A DNA stretch of 12,068 nt, taken from the NCBI GenBank assembly GCA_000416085.1, contig KE356579.1, positions 340,568 through 352,635 of the forward strand. Direction: 5' to 3'. The position numbers were made by a program, and so were the translations under genes. The notes beneath the pieces were generated by a model. That model worked only from the letters and a program-made list of their open reading frames with translations. It had not been told where the DNA came from and did not search any database. Of this stretch, positions 3,365-10,171 are shown in pieces. Positions within the stretch are counted from its first letter, which is position 1. Every line of letters begins with the position of its first letter. The stretch comes from a halophilic archaeon J07HX64. Its GTDB lineage: Archaea > Halobacteriota > Halobacteria > Halobacteriales > Haloarculaceae.

Positions 3365-3399
3365 CACACCCCTCCCGAGTATCGGGACCCCCCGGTGTG
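3365..3399. promoter_or_regulatory. Nested inverted repeat between rps6e and the peptidase gene
   Basis: An inner perfect repeat TCCCGA-GTA-TCGGGA (3373-3387) is enclosed by an outer one, CACACC (3365-3370) and GGTGTG (3394-3399). It lies in the 137-bp divergent intergenic region, 49 nt before the rps6e start and 54 nt before the peptidase start. It could be a shared operator; no match to a known site is claimed. Confidence 0.3.
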
Positions 3400-3453
3400 G
3401 CAAGCACAGAGGCCCCCCGAAAGATTGAATCCGTCCTGGCCAGTTCTCCGAGT

Positions 3454-5542
3454 ATGAGTGCACTGCCGGCAGATGCCGTCTACAGTCTGACGCGACCGAT
3501 GTCGGTCACAGTTTCGCCGGACGGTCGTCGCGTCGCGGTCCAGGTGCTCGAGTCCGACCCCGGTGCGGAGAGCCGGCGGAGTTCCGTGTTCGTCGTGCCC
3601 ACCGACGGGAGCCGCGACCCCCACCGGCTCACGCGTGTCTCCGGCGCCGGTTCGATGGCCTGGAGCCCCGACGGCACCAAACTGGGTGTCGTGATGGCGC
3701 GCGAGCGCGACCTCGAACTCCGGGTCGGCGGGGGCGGAACCGACGACACGGCCACCGCCGCCGGCGAGGACCGCGAGACGGACCCGCAGCCGCAACTGTG
3801 GGTGTACGACCTGGCGCGTGGCGGTGACCCGCGACAGCTCACCGACTTCGACGAGGGAGTTCGCGGGTTCGACTGGGGCCCTGCCGGTGAGCGCGTCGTT
3901 GTTGCGGCCCGTGACCCGACGGCGGCGGAGACGGAGCTATCTCGAACAGCGCCGCGACGGCGGGCCCGTCGAAACCGAACGTCTCCAGCACAAGTTCGAC
4001 GGCGTCGGCTGGCTCGACACGGCCACAACGTACCTGTTCGTCGTCGATATCGAGAGCCGGGACCGGCGTCGACTCGACCGGGCCCACGGCGGCGGCATCC
4101 TCGAACCGGGAACCGGGCTGGCCCCGGCCTGGCATCCCGATGACGACCGCGTGGCGTTTCTCGCCAACCACGGCGACCGCCCGGACGACAGCTACGCACA
4201 GGCTGTCCACGTCGTCGATACCGACACCGGCGAGACCAGACAGCTTCTGGGGGGCGACCGGATGGTCCGCGAACCGACGTGGAGCCCCGACGGCTCCCGT
4301 CTCGCGGTCGTCACCAGCAGTCCGACAAACTGGTACGCACCGGCCGACGTCTGTACTGTCGATCCGGACACCGGTCGGTGTCGGACACTCACCGACGGTC
4401 TCGACCGGCACCTCGCGTGGTTCGAACACGTTGTCTGGCTCGACAACGACAGCCTGCTGACCGCAATCGGCGACGGGGGCTGGTCACGACTCTTGGGGCT
4501 GTCGGCCGACGGCGGCCACGAGCGCGTCTACGACCAGCAGTCCCGCGACGAGTCACTAACTGGGTTCGACGCCGCCGGCGAGACGGTGGCGTTTGTCCGG
4601 CAACAGCCACAGGAGGGTATCGACGTCTTCGGACTGCCGGGCGAGGCGCTGTCGACAGGGGACCGGGGGCCGTCGACGGCAGGTGAGGACCCGCGTCGCC
4701 GGCTGACCGACCTGAACCCGGCGCTCGTCGCCGACTACGACCACCCCGAGGTCGAGCACATCAGCTTCGAGGGGGCAGACGGCGACACTGTCGAGGGACT
4801 CGCCTTCCTGCCGCCGGGGTTCGACCCCGGTGAGTCCGACGGCGATCGACCGCTTATACTCTCGATCCACGGCGGTCCCCGACGCTACGACGAGCCCCAG
4901 TTCGACTTCGACACCGCGTTCTGGACGACCCGGGGGTACGTCGTGTTCAAGCCGAACTACCACGGCTCGACCTCCTACGGTCGTGCGTTCTGTGAACGAC
5001 TCGGTGGCGCGTGGGGTGACGTGGAGGTCACCGACGCCCTCGCAGGGACCGACGAACTCCTCGAGCGCGGGTGGGTCGACCCAGACAGACTGTTCGTCAC
5101 CGGGTTCTCCTTTGGCGGTCGGGCAACAGCATCCGTCCTGGCCGAGACCGACCGGTTCGCCGCCGGGGTCGCCGAACACGGCAGCTACGACCTCCGGTCG
5201 GCGTTCGCAACCGGTGACGGCCACCGCTCGTTCGAGAACGAACTCGGTCGCCCCTGGGAACATCCCGAGACCTACGAGACGGCGTCGTCTATCACCGATG
5301 TCGGCTCCATCGACACGCCGCTCCTGCTGACCGCCGGCGAGGACGATATGCGCACCCCGGCCGCGCAGTCCGAACAGCTGTATGTCTCCCTGCGGAAGCG
5401 CGATGTCCCGGCAAAACTCGTTGTCTACCCGGACACACACCACGTCCACTACTTCGTCGCTGACCCGGACCGCGCCACACACCGACTCGAGACGCTGTCT
5501 GCCTGGTTCGAGCGGTTCGACCCCGTCGAGGGCGACGGCTGA
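3454..5542 (+). pseudogene. S9 family peptidase (prolyl oligopeptidase-like), frameshifted
   Basis: Serine peptidase of the S9 family (acylaminoacyl-peptidase/dipeptidyl-peptidase type) acting on short peptides. Frame 1 (from the ATG at 3454) gives a TolB/WD-type beta-propeller with SPDG repeats (VSPDGRR, WSPDGTK). It stays coherent to TAAETE near 3936. The protein then continues one base later (tat at 3938) as YLEQRRDGGPVETERLQHK, with more propeller blades and the alpha/beta-hydrolase domain to the stop at 5542. Removing one base near 3925-3937 restores a 695-aa protein. In that numbering the triad is Ser552 (GFSFGG), Asp631 (AGEDDMRTP) and His663 or 662 (DTHHV). A GTG at 3397 is in frame, but the ATG at 3454 fits better: GATTGAA about 29 nt upstream may be its TATA box and there is no Shine-Dalgarno. 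Whether the frameshift is real or a sequence error cannot be told here. Confidence 0.88.
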
Positions 5543-5682: not shown

Positions 5683-5859
5683 ATGAAGTACGCAACGTGG
5701 TTTCGTACAGATGCGATGTACGACGGACTGTCTGTGGCACGGGGACGGGGGGACCTAGAGACAGCGGGTTCAGTGGTATCGCGGGTCGTCGGACGCGGCC
5801 CCGGACGGGAGAGCGACGACCACCCGGTCGATACCGAGACGAGCGGTGATAACCGATGA
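5683..5859 (+). CDS. Hypothetical small protein, 58 aa, upstream of the oxidoreductase
   Basis: A 58-residue ORF beginning MKYATWFRTDAMYDGLSVAR and ending in an acidic, typically haloarchaeal tail (ESDDHPVDTETSGDNR). Its TGA (5857-5859) overlaps the ATG of the oxidoreductase (5856-5858) in an ATGA arrangement, a common sign of translational coupling. The Shine-Dalgarno-like GGTGA for the next gene (5845-5849) lies inside it. I recognise no domain. It is the first ORF after the TATA box and the AGTTT array. A longer ORF in another frame (5628-5849) is Arg/Gly-rich and looks like a shadow. It may be a leader or small partner protein, or the whole stretch may be an untranslated leader; moderate confidence only. 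Confidence 0.5.
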   Translation: MKYATWFRTDAMYDGLSVARGRGDLETAGSVVSRVVGRGPGRESDDHPVDTETSGDNR

Positions 5860-7380
5860 GAGCAGTGCTCGGGCGACTCCTCAGGCTGGTGACGAGCAGG
5901 TGGGCACTAACCGCGGTGCTGGCCGGGATGGCGGCGGTCGCTGGCTCCTTTGCCGCGGCCGGACTAACAGAGGACTTCGCGTTCACACCGGTCTCGTCGG
6001 TCGTCGTCCAGTACACCCCGGGTGTGATCATCAACACGACACTCGACACGTTCGGCAACTACGGTCAGTACATCAACATGGCGTTCACCCTGGGTGTGAC
6101 GACGGCACTCTTTGTCGGGGTGTCGGGGGCCGCGCTGGCGGTCGGTCGTCTCGTCGACCCGGACCGGCTCCGTGGCGCGCGGATTCCGATGGTGGGTCTG
6201 GCCGCGTGGGGGATGGCGGTTTTCCTCACGGGTGCGCCGCTGCTCTCGGTCGGGGCGGGTGCCGCGGCGGCGGCCGTGGTGATACTGGTCGACCGGCCCT
6301 GGCACGACGAGCTCTCGGTGAAAAGCGGGGGTCGCTGGCCCGACGAGGACCGGCGGGCGGTGTTGCAGACGAGTGCCGGTGTCGTCGGCTTCGCCGGTGC
6401 CTCGTACTTCCTGGGCAGCTACCGGACACCACAGCAGGAGTTCCCGGAACTCGATGTGGTGAGCGGTGTCGGTATCTCCGAGCCGGAGGAACTGCTCAAC
6501 GAGGCCGAGGAGAAGTCCTTCGACATACCCGACAGCCCGGACCTGGTGAGTCAGATCGGCTCGTTCTACACGGTCGATATCGCGACCGTTGCACCGCGAA
6601 TCAACGCCGACAGCTGGGAACTCGACGTGACCGGGAGCGTCGACAGCGAGCTGACAATCAGCTACGACGAACTCACCGACATGGACGCCGACCATCGGTT
6701 CAGTACCCTCCGCTGTGTCGGTGAGGAGCTGAACGCCCGGAAGATGGACAACGCGGTCTGGACGGGTGTTCCCGCGAGTCGCCTCTCCGAGCAGGCTGGC
6801 GCGAGCGGAAACCACGTCGCGATGCGCGCCGACGACGACTACTGGAACGTCGTCCCCCGGGAGGTGTTCGAGCAGGCGTACATCATCTACGGGATGAACG
6901 GTAACGTCCTGCCGCGGGAGCACGGTCACCCTGTCCGGGTCATCGTGCCCGGCCACTGGGGCGAGACGAACGTCAAGTGGCTCCAGGAGATCGAGTTCCT
7001 CGAGGAGGATACCCAGGGGTACTGGGAGGAGCGCGGCTGGGACGGCACCGGTGAGGTCTGCGGTGTCGCGAAAATCTGGGCCACCACCGAAACCGGGAGC
7101 GGACATCATGCTCGGCGGCCTCGCTCACGACGGCACCGACGGCGTCCAGGCTGTCGAGATATCGCTCGACGGCGGCGAGAGCTGGCAGGAGACCGAGATC
7201 ACCGAGCAGCTCTCGGTCGGCGATAGCTGGCGGCAGTGGCGCTACGAGGTGACCGAACCCGGCGACCACGAGGTTGTCGTCAGGATGCGCGACGGCAACG
7301 GCGAACTCCAGGAGCGCGAGGAGAGTGACTCCTTCCCGGACGGTGCGACCGGCTGGGTGAGCAAATCGATTACGGTCTAA
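5856..7380 (+). pseudogene. Membrane-anchored sulfite oxidase-type molybdopterin oxidoreductase, frameshifted
   Basis: A molybdopterin enzyme of the sulfite oxidase/YedY superfamily; the substrate is unknown. Residues 1-150 hold about four hydrophobic segments (near 16-36, 73-99, 108-127, 129-146). Next comes a twin-arginine-like motif, DRRAVLQ (165-171), then a fifth segment (172-188). The Mo-binding domain begins near 228, and STLRCVGEEL places the expected Mo-ligand cysteine at 287. The C-terminal part (IMLGGLAHDGTDGVQAVEIS, SLDGGESW) is the Mo-cofactor dimerisation beta-sandwich. That part is in the next frame: the first frame is coherent through KIWATTETG, the second resumes at GADIMLGG, so one extra base lies around 7093-7100 (a GGG run is there). 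Removing it gives 507 aa. The start is coupled to the preceding small ORF, with GGTGA six nt upstream. Family secure; the break may be real or an error. Confidence 0.87.
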
Positions 7381-7778: not shown

Positions 7779-7986
7779 GACTGACCTGGCGTACCACGCA
7801 CCCCCGCTGTGAGTGTCCTCGCTTAGGACGGTCACCGGTGGAGCGGTATGTGTGTGCGAACGCTTGCACGAACGTGGCGCTCTCGTCGGTGAGCTTCTCC
7901 CGGTGGGTGTCTCGCCGGTGGCGGGTCCTCAGAGATCGGGGAACCGACCCCGCGGCGGTTCCTCTACAGGTTGAGCAGGCCGAGTG

Positions 7987-8061
7987 CCTCGGGGTCGTTC
8001 GGAAGACTCTGTCTTCCGTGATGACAAGAGACGGAGTCTCTTGAACCACTTGACCCCGAGG
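7987..8061 (+). ncRNA. Three-stem structured element, copy A (omega-RNA/IS right-end-like)
   Basis: A closing stem CCTCGGGGTC (7987-7996) pairs perfectly with GACCCCGAGG (8052-8061). Inside are two hairpins: 8000-8018 (8-bp stem CGGAAGAC/GTCTTCCG, loop TCT) and 8025-8043 (8-bp stem CAAGAGAC/GTCTCTTG, loop GGA), joined by TGATGA. The unit is a compact three-way junction. Copy B has the same length and fold with compensatory changes. Likely an RNA or single-stranded-DNA fold from an IS200/IS605 (IS1341-type) right end; strand is chosen by resemblance to such ends and is not certain. Confidence 0.6.
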
Positions 8062-8096
8062 GTGAAGACCGTCGAAATCTTTAGATTCCCTCAGTA

Positions 8097-8109
8097 TAAT
8101 ATCGTATTA
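8097..8109. promoter_or_regulatory. AT-rich inverted repeat in the gene-poor region
   Basis: TAATA-TCG-TATTA is a perfect inverted repeat within the only strongly AT-rich island of the gene-poor region. It resembles a TATA box region and could be a promoter or a mobile-element end. Nothing intact lies directly downstream; the nearest ATG (8135) opens a frame of only about ten codons. Confidence 0.25.
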
Positions 8110-8144
8110 ACGACTAGAAACAACCCATCAAAGCATGGAGTTGA

Positions 8145-8399
8145 AGATCTCACTTCCTTTGCTGGTCGTTTGACAGGTTTGGAAATGTGGCTCCTCTCAA
8201 CATCCGCGACGGCGGTGCGACGGGGGTTTCAACGGGCGGAGTGAAGCCGCCGACTTCCACGGACTCTTCACCGAGCTCGGGTGTAAATTCCAGCCGACTC
8301 GAAAGAGAAGGTCGGGAGGAATTACATTCACCTGCGAACGCGGTGCCGACCCAAGACGGTGAAGCCTCGGGGTCGTACGGAAATCTTCGATTTCCGTGA
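8145..8399 (+). pseudogene. Possible remnant of a TnpB-type (IS605/IS1341) C-terminus
   Basis: One frame, ending at the tandem stops of TGATGA inside structured copy B, reads through FDRFGNVAPLNIRDGG and later ASGSYGNLRFP. The NIRD stretch resembles the end of the RuvC-III region (D-x-N-A-A-x-N-I) of haloarchaeal TnpB proteins, although the motif is not intact. The position just ahead of the right-end-like hairpins fits a tnpB 3' end. There is no upstream body of the gene and no zinc finger. This is a low-confidence reading; the stretch may be non-coding. Confidence 0.22.
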
Positions 8400-8439
8400 T
8401 GACGAGAGACGCAGTCTCTCGAACCACTTGTCCCCGAGG
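8365..8439 (+). ncRNA. Three-stem structured element, copy B (omega-RNA/IS right-end-like)
   Basis: Same 75-nt layout as copy A. The closing stem is CCTCGGGGTC (8365-8374) with GTCCCCGAGG (8430-8439), with one T-T mismatch. Hairpin 8378-8396 has stem CGGAAATC/GATTTCCG, then TGATGA (8397-8402), then hairpin 8403-8421 with stem CGAGAGAC/GTCTCTCG. By hand count 64 of 75 positions match copy A. Three base pairs differ on both sides and keep pairing, three differences are in loops, and one disrupts the outer stem. It lies directly after the possible TnpB relic. Confidence 0.6.
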
Positions 8440-8693
8440 TAATTCACTGTTCCAGGCCTTGTGGACACTGTCGATTGTAAAGCTCTTGTTGATCTGCGCC
8501 GCGACCCGTAGTCTCACGCAGGTTTGCTCATCAATCCCGTGACACTCCCGACCAGCGCGTCATCGGCCCGGGCAGAGCGGACCTGTCTGTTTCGCCGCCT
8601 CGTCGAACGCGCGCCACTCGATGTGTGCCGACCCGCTGTCTCCGTCCGCGCTCTGCCGTTGTGTGTCGCCGTGGAAACCGTTCCATCCGGGGC

Positions 8694-10004
8694 CTACAGC
8701 AGGTCGTCGGCGGTCCGCACACGCACACTCGTTGGTTGTTTGACGAACTCGCCGCTCGCCGCACCGACGACCTGTCCGACACCGCGCTGTGCTGTAATGT
8801 CGAGAATCCGCTGTGTGATTGTCCCGTCAAGCACAACGGTGTGTGGCGAGGACTCGCTGTCCACAACCGCGTCGAACGCCCCGGCCGCGTCGGTTTCGGC
8901 GAGCGTGGACAGGTCGCCGTCGAGCAGACGCACCTGCCCTGTCTCGCGCCCGACAACCGCCTCGACGTGCCCCCGCAGGGTTTGTGGCTCCCGCTCGTCG
9001 GGTCCGTCGTCTGTTTCGGCTGTCGTGTGGTCGGCTGCCGGTTCCTCGTTGCCGGTGGTGGAACCTGTCGAACCTGTCGTACTGTCGGCGACCGCACCGC
9101 CGTCCGTCGACTCTGCGGGTGCGACTGTGCCGTCTTCCGTCGACTCTGCGGGTGCGACCGTGCCGCCCTCCGTCGGGGCGAACGCTTCCCGCGGTGTGGT
9201 GCCGTCGGTGACCTGGTCGTAGCGAATCTTTTTCTCCAGCGCGTCACGGAGTTCGGCGTGTTCGAGGTCCTCGACGGACTTCCCGTCCGCGGCGAACGCC
9301 ACGTAGTCGATACTGCCGACCTGTGTGAGTTCCTCAAGAATGAGGTCACCGCCACGGTCACCGTCGAGAAACGCTGTTGTCGTGCGGTCCCGGGTCAACT
9401 GTGTCACCGCGTCGGGGACATCTGTCCCCTCTGCGGCGATGACGTTTTTGACACCGTGTCCGAGCAACTGTCGGACATCTGCCCGTCCCTCCACGATAAT
9501 GATAGCATCACTGGTCTCGACGTTGGGGCCTGCCGGCAGGCCCGCGTACTGGGTTATCCCCGCAGCACGGGTCTGCTTGCGGACCTCCTCGACGAGTGTC
9601 TCACCGGTGACGGCCCGTTCCTCGAACGCCTGCAGGAGCTCTGTCGCCCGGTCGACCACGTTGCGGCGCTTCGCTGCCCGGACGTCCTCTATCTCGATGA
9701 CCCTGCAGTCCGCGTAGCAGGGGCCGACCCGCTCTATCGTCTCGAACGACGCCGCGAGCACCGCCGTCTCGACGCGGTCCATCCCCGAGGAGATGGTGAA
9801 CGTGCCGAACGACTTCCCGTCTGCCGAGTCGATATCGACGTCGATGCGGCCGACCTTTTCCGACTCCTGCAGTGTTCGCAGATCCAGTTCCTCGCCCAGC
9901 AACCCCTCTGTCTGACCGAACACCGCGCCGACGACGTCACTCCGCTCGACCACCCCGCTCGTCTGTATCTCGGCGTGAATAATGTACTTTGCTGAGTGTT
10001 GCAT
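8694..10004 (-). CDS. dnaG: Archaeal DnaG, primase-like TOPRIM protein
   Basis: A 436-aa archaeal DnaG. Archaeal DnaG has RNA-polymerising activity in vitro and associates with the exosome. The N-terminal region starts MQHSAKYIIHAEIQTSGVVE and contains the conserved DVVGAVFGQTEGLLGEELDL (about 23-42). The TOPRIM domain follows, with IIIVEGRADV (Glu172), the central AAEGTDVP, and FLDGDRGGD (Asp214, Asp216, Asp220), then KIRYDQ. Residues 268-340 are a Thr/Ser/Glu/Asp-rich linker with imperfect 11-residue repeats (TVAPAESTEDG). The C-terminal domain (about 341-436) carries LRGHVEAVVG and the final VRVRTADDLL. The frame is open to 10154, but the extension is not conserved-looking; the ATG at 10004 gives the family's start. 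It is divergent from the sulfosugar synthase gene. Confidence 0.95.
   Translation of the reverse strand: MQHSAKYIIHAEIQTSGVVERSDVVGAVFGQTEGLLGEELDLRTLQESEKVGRIDVDIDSADGKSFGTFTISSGMDRVETAVLAASFETIERVGPCYADCRVIEIEDVRAAKRRNVVDRATELLQAFEERAVTGETLVEEVRKQTRAAGITQYAGLPAGPNVETSDAIIIVEGRADVRQLLGHGVKNVIAAEGTDVPDAVTQLTRDRTTTAFLDGDRGGDLILEELTQVGSIDYVAFAADGKSVEDLEHAELRDALEKKIRYDQVTDGTTPREAFAPTEGGTVAPAESTEDGTVAPAESTDGGAVADSTTGSTGSTTGNEEPAADHTTAETDDGPDEREPQTLRGHVEAVVGRETGQVRLLDGDLSTLAETDAAGAFDAVVDSESSPHTVVLDGTITQRILDITAQRGVGQVVGAASGEFVKQPTSVRVRTADDLL
9103..9175. repeat. 33-nt tandem repeat within dnaG
   Basis: Two nearly identical 33-nt units (9103-9135 and 9136-9168; three mismatches by eye) plus the start of a third encode the TVAPAEST-type repeats of the DnaG linker. 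The period is a multiple of three, so copy-number change keeps the frame. Confidence 0.8.
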
Positions 10005-10041
10005 TGATGATCTGCCCGTGAGAGCGTTGTTCGTGGTGATG

Positions 10042-10059
10042 CCATGAAACAGCTCATGG
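10042..10059. promoter_or_regulatory. Inverted repeat upstream of dnaG (possible operator)
   Basis: CCATGA (10042-10047) and TCATGG (10054-10059) form a perfect 6-bp inverted repeat with a 6-nt spacer. It lies just downstream of the TATA-like box used by dnaG on the minus strand, where a bound repressor would block initiation. Role inferred. Confidence 0.3.
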
Positions 10060-10060
10060 A

Positions 10061-10069
10061 CATATACAC
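10061..10069 (-). promoter_or_regulatory. TATA-like box for dnaG
   Basis: On the minus strand this reads GTGTATATG, about 60 nt before the dnaG ATG. Initiation some 25 nt downstream would leave a leader of roughly 35 nt. Confidence 0.4.
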
Positions 10070-10171
10070 GTAGGACTGCTGTTGTAAATATCTGCTGACT
10101 TCTGTATTGTCTTGTTTCCACTGGGTGTAGACCCGTCAGCCCGGTGTTCGACACGAGCCCAAGCCGATACG

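Follow-up and report, generated by a model that had tools for sequence, protein, structure and literature searches.

What are two 75-nt units that fold alike and lie on the same strand, with no intact tnpB gene in the DNA between them, and are they one thing or two? We addressed this question in a 12,068-nt stretch of the genome of the halophilic archaeon J07HX64 (assembly GCA_000416085.1, contig KE356579.1, positions 340,568 to 352,635), referred to here as the window. The units are located at positions 7987-8061 and 8365-8439, are spaced 378 nt from start to start and are identical in 64 of 75 columns. The original prediction had described exactly these units, and its hand count of the 11 differences was also exact: six make up three compensatory base-pair changes, three fall in hairpin loops, one falls in a linker and one breaks a pair of the outer stem. 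Both units folded better than all 200 of their dinucleotide shuffles (z = -6.05 and -5.13). The common closing stem with two hairpins that had been proposed was found as the minimum-energy fold of copy 2 only, as copy 1 on its own prefers a rod-like fold; support for the three-way fold therefore comes from covariation. Over 15 copies from the window genome, 91.2% of cells pair in this fold, and its covariation score (0.185, compared with at most 0.067 for slid partners) was reached by none of 500 shuffles, with two of five measures not being unusual (pairs changed on both sides, reached by 45 of 500 shuffles, and pair types, reached by 237 of 500). A covariance model of the end fold built from these 15 copies, R1, matched 28 places in the window genome and at least one place in 122 of 146 genomes of the family. 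As predicted, the fold is conserved, and variation among the relatives is not random.

The two folds as ends of one element

Copies of the fold in the window genome occur in two settings. In the left-end type, the boundary sequence TAC/AG lies about 20 nt 5' of the stem and GTGAA or a similar sequence lies 3' of it; in the right-end type, tnpB codons precede the stem and the sequence TTCAC, which ends at the boundary, follows it. In four open tnpB elements (L183-L186), one copy of the fold precedes tnpB and another overlaps the stop codon of the gene, and in two elements with divergent tnpA and tnpB genes (L178 and L179), the fold closes both ends. Since copy 1 in the window has left-end flanks and copy 2 has right-end flanks, we interpret the two folds as marking the left end and the right end of a single protein-free element of IS200/IS605 type that spans 7968-8447, with the following features.

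7968-8447, + strand: whole protein-free IS200/IS605-type element, 480 bp; boundaries common to relatives, empty site in the related genome G113
7963-7967, + strand: TCTAC, candidate target site and transposon-adjacent motif left of the element; TCTAC in 55 of 61 left boundaries found
7987-8061, + strand: left-end fold, closing stem plus two hairpins; flanks of left-end type, same fold in L178, L179 and L183-L186
8365-8439, + strand: right-end fold, putative 3' hairpin domain of an omegaRNA; same fold over the tnpB stop codon in L183-L186
8440-8447, + strand: TAATTCAC, right boundary (consensus GGTACTTCAC, found in 68 of 79 copies)
8187-8399, + strand: open frame of 70 aa that is no gene, as relatives do not maintain it

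Two independent guide scaffolds are ruled out, as tnpB elements carry the fold at both ends. The earlier assignment of the folds to IS200/IS605 ends was borne out by these elements, and homologues were indeed present near tnpB genes. What did not hold was the idea of two stranded guide-RNA scaffolds, given that G113 lacks exactly 7968-8447. The accompanying suggestions of a MITE-like relic and of a TnpB encoded elsewhere came close, with the qualification that the copies are parts of a single protein-free mobile element, which a TnpB acting in trans would serve.

IS200/IS605 elements are described in the available passages of one paper as having hairpins at both ends, identical in some elements, which TnpA binds, and as inserting 3' of a short target (PMC7290912). 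The window element has a hairpin near either end, the two being on the same strand, and lies 3' of TCTAC; insertion 3' of TCTAC without a target duplication is seen in other copies. No TnpA (Y1) or TnpB frame is present within it, as the original prediction had noted for tnpB, and it is therefore regarded as a non-autonomous relative of these elements rather than as an insertion sequence. TnpA elements with the fold (L178-L182) were found by comparing the coordinates of R1 and TnpA matches; among the best 30 TnpA loci, the fold is present in L129, weakly in L128 and in no others, and the single TnpA found in the window genome is located in a stretch (L187) without the fold. As a separate observation, a small open frame that looks AbrB-like by eye lies between the left-end fold and tnpB in L034. 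Single folds whose 5' flank is of the left-end type and whose 3' flank is of the right-end type were also noted (L002, L004, L015, L017, L018 and L021), and these fit, as expected, a deletion of the core between the end repeats, similar to solo LTRs.

The boundaries were determined in a census of 79 protein-free copies (91 rows minus 12 tnpB-linked copies). A search rule found the left boundary in 61 of them; the lengths of the elements are mostly 353-547 bp, and of two copies that gave shorter lengths, one is due to a mis-set boundary. The right flanks are 75 distinct sequences among 76. In the window, the element lies close to dnaG (8694-10154, minus strand), and at the same place adjoining dnaG in G113 (L091), it is absent: the window flanks joined at 7967/8448 align unbroken across the joint to positions 1040-1097 of this locus, with two gaps and 45 of 59 columns identical (E = 1e-7 in a comparison within that locus). 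On both sides, additional stretches are colinear, with other length differences, and TCTAC itself is not kept at the empty site. Fourteen other loci of the genus (L092-L105) gave no match across the window joint. Another copy in the window genome (L011) splits a gene, and its joined flanks form one open frame with a PAP2 domain (PF01569) at residues 49-160 and the joint at residue 100. The flanks of L282 joined at the boundaries give a PQQ propeller frame, and no Pfam family was matched by the joined frame of L193. An empty site at L214 was rejected, as its two flanks match different transposases. With regard to the surroundings, we noticed a second, split dnaG-like copy in the window genome (G000:C1:928089-928682 and 934305-934883). 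Two long genes upstream of the element, peptidase-like (3397-5542) and molybdopterin-oxidoreductase-like (5856-7380) by eye, look frameshifted, perhaps through indels in the assembly; these might also account for this genome being 72% complete.

Among 57 protein-free copies with both boundaries, most left hairpins have a loop distance of 6, 60 or 114 nt (10, 53, 62 or 113 nt in a few), and the width of the right end is 19, 73-75 or 127 nt. Each step in the size of the end hairpins thus adds about 54 nt (gains of about 54 or 108 nt), which suggests that the three-way junction consists of a two-hairpin module placed in the CTTGA loop of a simple stem-loop-stem end hairpin, and that two such modules are present in the long form. 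Twenty-four of the 57 copies have two simple hairpins, 22 have an enlarged left end only and six are unclassed on the left; only the window copy carries a single module at the left end and another at the right. The modules possibly correspond to the SMR-A repeats of Haloquadratum, beside which we set them by description: these repeats are reported, in the passages available, to be about 110 bp long, to have inverted ends and to insert in IS605/PATE palindromes (PMC3119063).

A conserved structured RNA between the ends

The 303 bases between the folds match 11 of 40 genomes searched, some of them of other families, and this conservation rules out a random tnpB relic, as the 70-aa frame might have suggested. 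One genome of another family (G154) has 15 matching places, and matches were also found in haloarchaeal plasmids, where in most cases no gene is annotated at the matching place. The window genome itself contains eight places matching the middle or the RNA when this search and a model of the RNA (R2, see below) are combined. No reading frame is kept: core lengths in relatives represent each of the three phases, and the frame in which stops appear varies. The features that we assign to this region are as follows.

8080-8085, + strand: TATA-like box TTTAGA, candidate archaeal promoter, 29 nt before the 5' stem of the RNA
8109-8170, + strand: 5' RNA domain, outer stem AACGACTAG/CTGGTCGTT and inner hairpin (18 copies, covariation 0.282)
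8181-8336, + strand: predicted omegaRNA (sot-like) core, from covariation in alignment A4 and R2 matches at tnpB 3' ends
8286-8290, + strand: predicted pseudoknot 5' strand, pairing with 8319-8323 (helix 6 of the core)
8319-8323, + strand: predicted pseudoknot 3' strand, from the A4 core structure
8448-8463, + strand: putative guide, host DNA adjoining the right end, from the layout of omegaRNAs

A core structure was drawn manually from A4, an alignment of 38 copies of 8181-8336. It comprises 40 pairs including the pseudoknot, with 96.3% of cells paired. Changes on both sides affect 23 of these pairs (154 cells), and the structure has a covariation score of 0.298 compared with at most 0.069 for slid controls; none of 500 shuffles reached any of the five values. 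On the basis of this covariation, we conclude that 8181-8336 belongs to a structured RNA that is kept across haloarchaeal families. For the pseudoknot (helix 6), in which 93.7% of cells pair and one of five pairs is changed on both sides, the support is weaker than for the other core helices. RNAalifold, which cannot represent a pseudoknot, recovered several of the same helices from A4 without a given structure; helix 3 was not among them, another long-range helix being preferred there. A G-U pair is near-invariant in the core (37 of 38 copies), and departures from standard pairing mildly favor the + strand as the RNA strand (34 G-U versus 22 A-C) compared with 13 versus 14 in the end fold.

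The 5' domain also covaries: in 18 copies, 97.7% of cells pair, and the score of 0.282 compares with at most 0.114 for slid controls, with the number of pairs changed on both sides being reached by 27 of 500 shuffles. This domain is unmatched in the tnpB-linked copies, where R2 matches begin at model position 77-90, and diverged protein-free copies likewise fail to match it. Upstream of it, 18 instances of a TTTA[ATG] box were found in 44 copies, all of them 30 to 27 nt ahead of the first stem and none elsewhere in -62 to -1, and the A+T fraction at -28 to -26 is 0.86-0.95; the remaining copies lack the strict box. As the copies are related to each other, the promoter-like box is suggestive only.

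Relation to TnpB omegaRNAs and distribution

R2 was built from protein-free copies only, without the tnpB-linked ones. It nevertheless matches the 3' ends of tnpB genes of the Natrialba magadii type (12 loci, 87-112 bits), some of which are partial or broken, and five fold-bearing IS605 loci with related TnpBs (L179, L180, L181, L062 and L080; 45-50 bits), so that the link to TnpB omegaRNAs made in the original prediction is supported over a range of 45-112 bits. No match was obtained at L178, although its TnpB belongs to a related clade, or at L031, L033, L034 and L183-L186, which have TnpBs of other clades. In a control set of 68 other TnpB or TnpA loci, R2 matched L115 and L130 only, in both cases at the 3' end of a TnpB relative. 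Among 38 loci with TnpB relatives of L031, the end fold is strong in L148 only and weak in L159, and the R2 RNA is found in none, which places the L031 relatives in another clade. Matches confined to related TnpB loci suggest that the RNA goes with one TnpB lineage, and the three TnpBs of this lineage that were scanned carry a Cas12f-like TNB domain.

A second line of comparison is given by sot2652 of Halobacterium, which is described in the passages available as expressed and is treated there as an omegaRNA; a pseudoknot and a right-end hairpin are features of the Halobacterium omegaRNAs (PMC12558985). The Rfam model of sot2652 gives a full-length alignment with the tnpB-linked copy in N. magadii (43.9 bits, E = 1.2e-6) and weakly matches two protein-free copies (27.2 and 22.9 bits); it found nothing at three other loci tested, among them the window locus (L192). 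None of the tested copies reaches the gathering cut-off of RF02657 (61 bits), and the window has no Rfam match at gathering cut-offs. The window copy scores 130.9 bits with R2, which is below most of the protein-free copies listed. Homology at the tnpB 3' end, a pseudoknot with modest covariation and a right-end hairpin are thus all present, and by comparison, the RNA core is a homologue of TnpB omegaRNA, for which a guide function would be expected. The predicted guide-RNA scaffold consists of 8181-8336 and the right-end fold. The left-end fold, which ends at 8061, is followed by DNA of the element itself and so lacks a flanking guide.

The surroundings of the protein-free copies were also searched for TnpB. 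When the 38 A4 loci were searched with five TnpBs, none was found directly upstream on the RNA strand; L244 has a TnpB on the opposite strand, 116 bp away, and L224 has an unrelated TnpB 1.5 kb upstream. Among the best 30 R2 loci, a TnpB relative was present in the flanks of L292 only (30% identity), and none was present in the flanks of 11 further R2 loci. As an aside, L244 lies on a Haloplanus rubicundus plasmid, where a solo omegaRNA element is arranged tail to tail with a cognate TnpB that is 67% identical to that of N. magadii.

At an E value of 0.001, R2 matches 167 of 392 genomes of the order, with copy numbers being at least the values obtained, as scoring was limited to seven candidates in each genome; a weak single match probably belongs to a tnpB-linked copy. 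A match at an E value of 1e-34 or better, a cut chosen after the scores were known, is found in 53 genomes by a manual count, and the flanks were checked for TnpB in about 34 of these. A TnpB matching that of N. magadii at 1e-60 or better is present in 162 of the 392 genomes (four candidates scored in each genome): 40 of the 53 genomes with a strong RNA match compared with 122 of the 339 others (Fisher P = 1.2e-7, with genomes taken as independent of kinship). The window genome (72% complete) has no cognate TnpB at this threshold, its best match having 30% identity, and neither do 12 further genomes of the 53. The window guide together with TCTAC has no site beyond chance in the window genome (13 forward and 8 reverse, compared with 16 and 11 for the control). 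The guide has no exact match in viral contigs, the pattern of the RNA core has no match there either, and three whole-element queries gave no match in a phage collection.

Possible life of the element and its known relatives

TnpB is the ancestor of CRISPR-Cas12 and is thought to keep transposons in place by cutting the donor sites that they have emptied. We consider it probable that the window element (7968-8447) is a non-autonomous palindrome-associated transposable element (PATE) of the IS200/IS605 family whose only cargo is a TnpB guide RNA and which is served in trans. The RNA would be transcribed from a promoter just inside the left end, and the transcript would run through the right-end hairpin and take the flanking host DNA as its guide. 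TnpA and TnpB made elsewhere would serve the element in trans: TnpA would bind the two end hairpins and peel the element out as a single strand, TnpB loaded with the RNA of the element would cut the emptied donor site (TCTAC and guide), and repair of this site would copy the element back. The element would therefore live on two proteins encoded elsewhere, and the folds from which this work started would be its end hairpins, both of them extended by a single two-hairpin module (about 54 nt). A window guide with neither a second genomic site nor an exact viral match is what this donor-site model predicts. Comparison provides the anatomy of the element (its ends and boundaries), the empty site, the constraint on the RNA and its homology to the 3' end of one TnpB lineage; service by a TnpB from elsewhere would be the uncertain step of the explanation. 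A broader proposal is that such RNA-only transposons form an order-wide class with a promoter-driven TnpB guide RNA as the only gene. TnpA would move these elements and TnpB would keep them in place, both proteins coming from other elements, and the guide would be renewed at each jump; this we put forward tentatively, as something that may well turn out otherwise.

Other explanations have to be weighed against this. The element could be a plain PATE that is mobile through TnpA in trans only, with the RNA core being a leftover of tnpB that is not used as RNA. PATEs derived from IS605 by core deletion are described in Haloquadratum, in the passages available (PMC3119063), and a missing cognate TnpB in the 72% complete window genome would agree with such an origin. 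However, the core is strongly constrained as RNA across families, the 5' domain covaries too even though it is unmatched in tnpB-linked copies (and in the diverged protein-free ones), and the TATA-like box retains its distance from the stem in the copies that have it; such features would hardly persist in a leftover, and we regard this explanation as unlikely. It is also conceivable that the conservation reflects a single-stranded DNA shape recognized by TnpA and not an RNA. For the ends this would be possible, as TnpA is described as binding end hairpins (PMC7290912, in the passages available) and the end folds have no G-U bias, but the core has its near-invariant G-U pair and covarying helices, resembles sot2652 and sits where the omegaRNA sits in tnpB genes, which makes a DNA shape a very improbable account.

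Domestication would be another route, with solo omegaRNAs repressing genes by guiding a TnpB that is perhaps nuclease-dead, or acting as a sponge for TnpB. The many solo copies in some genomes, such as the 15 matches in G154, could supply guides for many sites. On the other hand, nearly every right flank is distinct, and no second target of the window guide beyond chance was found in its own genome. Both results would be expected if the element is mobile, and regulation seems quite improbable to us. Our preferred reading remains a mobile element that carries a TnpB guide RNA.

PATEs were described in Haloquadratum walsbyi (PMC3119063). As far as that account is available, the window element resembles them in having no terminal inverted repeats, near-terminal palindromes (IS605-related in PATEs), no target duplication and too short a length for a transposase, and some PATEs also have near-terminal palindromes in direct repeat, with core deletions between them. 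In contrast to PATEs as described there, which are non-coding or have fused degenerate ends, the core of the window family is a conserved omegaRNA-like RNA. The promoter-like box in part of the copies likewise differs from the PATEs of H. walsbyi in this description, although some of the HqIRS sequences of that study may belong to the window family. With sot2652 (RF02657), the family has a homologous body, the pseudoknot and the right-end hairpin in common, but sot2652 overlaps a tnpB gene, whereas the window RNA has no tnpB and its relatives score below the Rfam gathering cut-off. A 489-bp PATE of Halorubrum virus HRTV-DL1 is strongly transcribed at one end, and in the passages available its authors imagined a function as noncoding RNA (PMC10544981). 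It is not a member of the same family, the best R2 score in 6 kb being 3.2 bits with filters off. This transcribed PATE (L327, 972-1101) gave a weak match to HgcC RNA (21.4 bits, below the cut-off of 50).

The titles and passages of the open papers searched, where the Greek-letter name was unsearchable, describe no PATE as a solo TnpB omegaRNA. PATEs as such are known, but as far as our searches show, one that consists of a solo omegaRNA with its promoter-like box and is spread through an order appears to be new. A further parallel is provided by the standalone omegaRNAs of IscB, guide RNA loci without an adjoining nuclease that were reportedly found by Altae-Tran et al. in 2021; their nuclease is IscB and not TnpB as in the window family, and we know of no end-to-end mobile unit among them.

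Taken together, these comparisons supply an RNA family with dozens of natural scaffold variants and suggest a testable function for at least one haloarchaeal PATE family, a class that has figured since 2011 among repeats without a transposase. Should solo omegaRNAs recruit TnpB in trans, they would be parasites of parasites that need only two hairpins and a guide RNA. If this is true, one TnpB would serve many guides scattered over the genome, an arrangement close to a dispersed CRISPR array.
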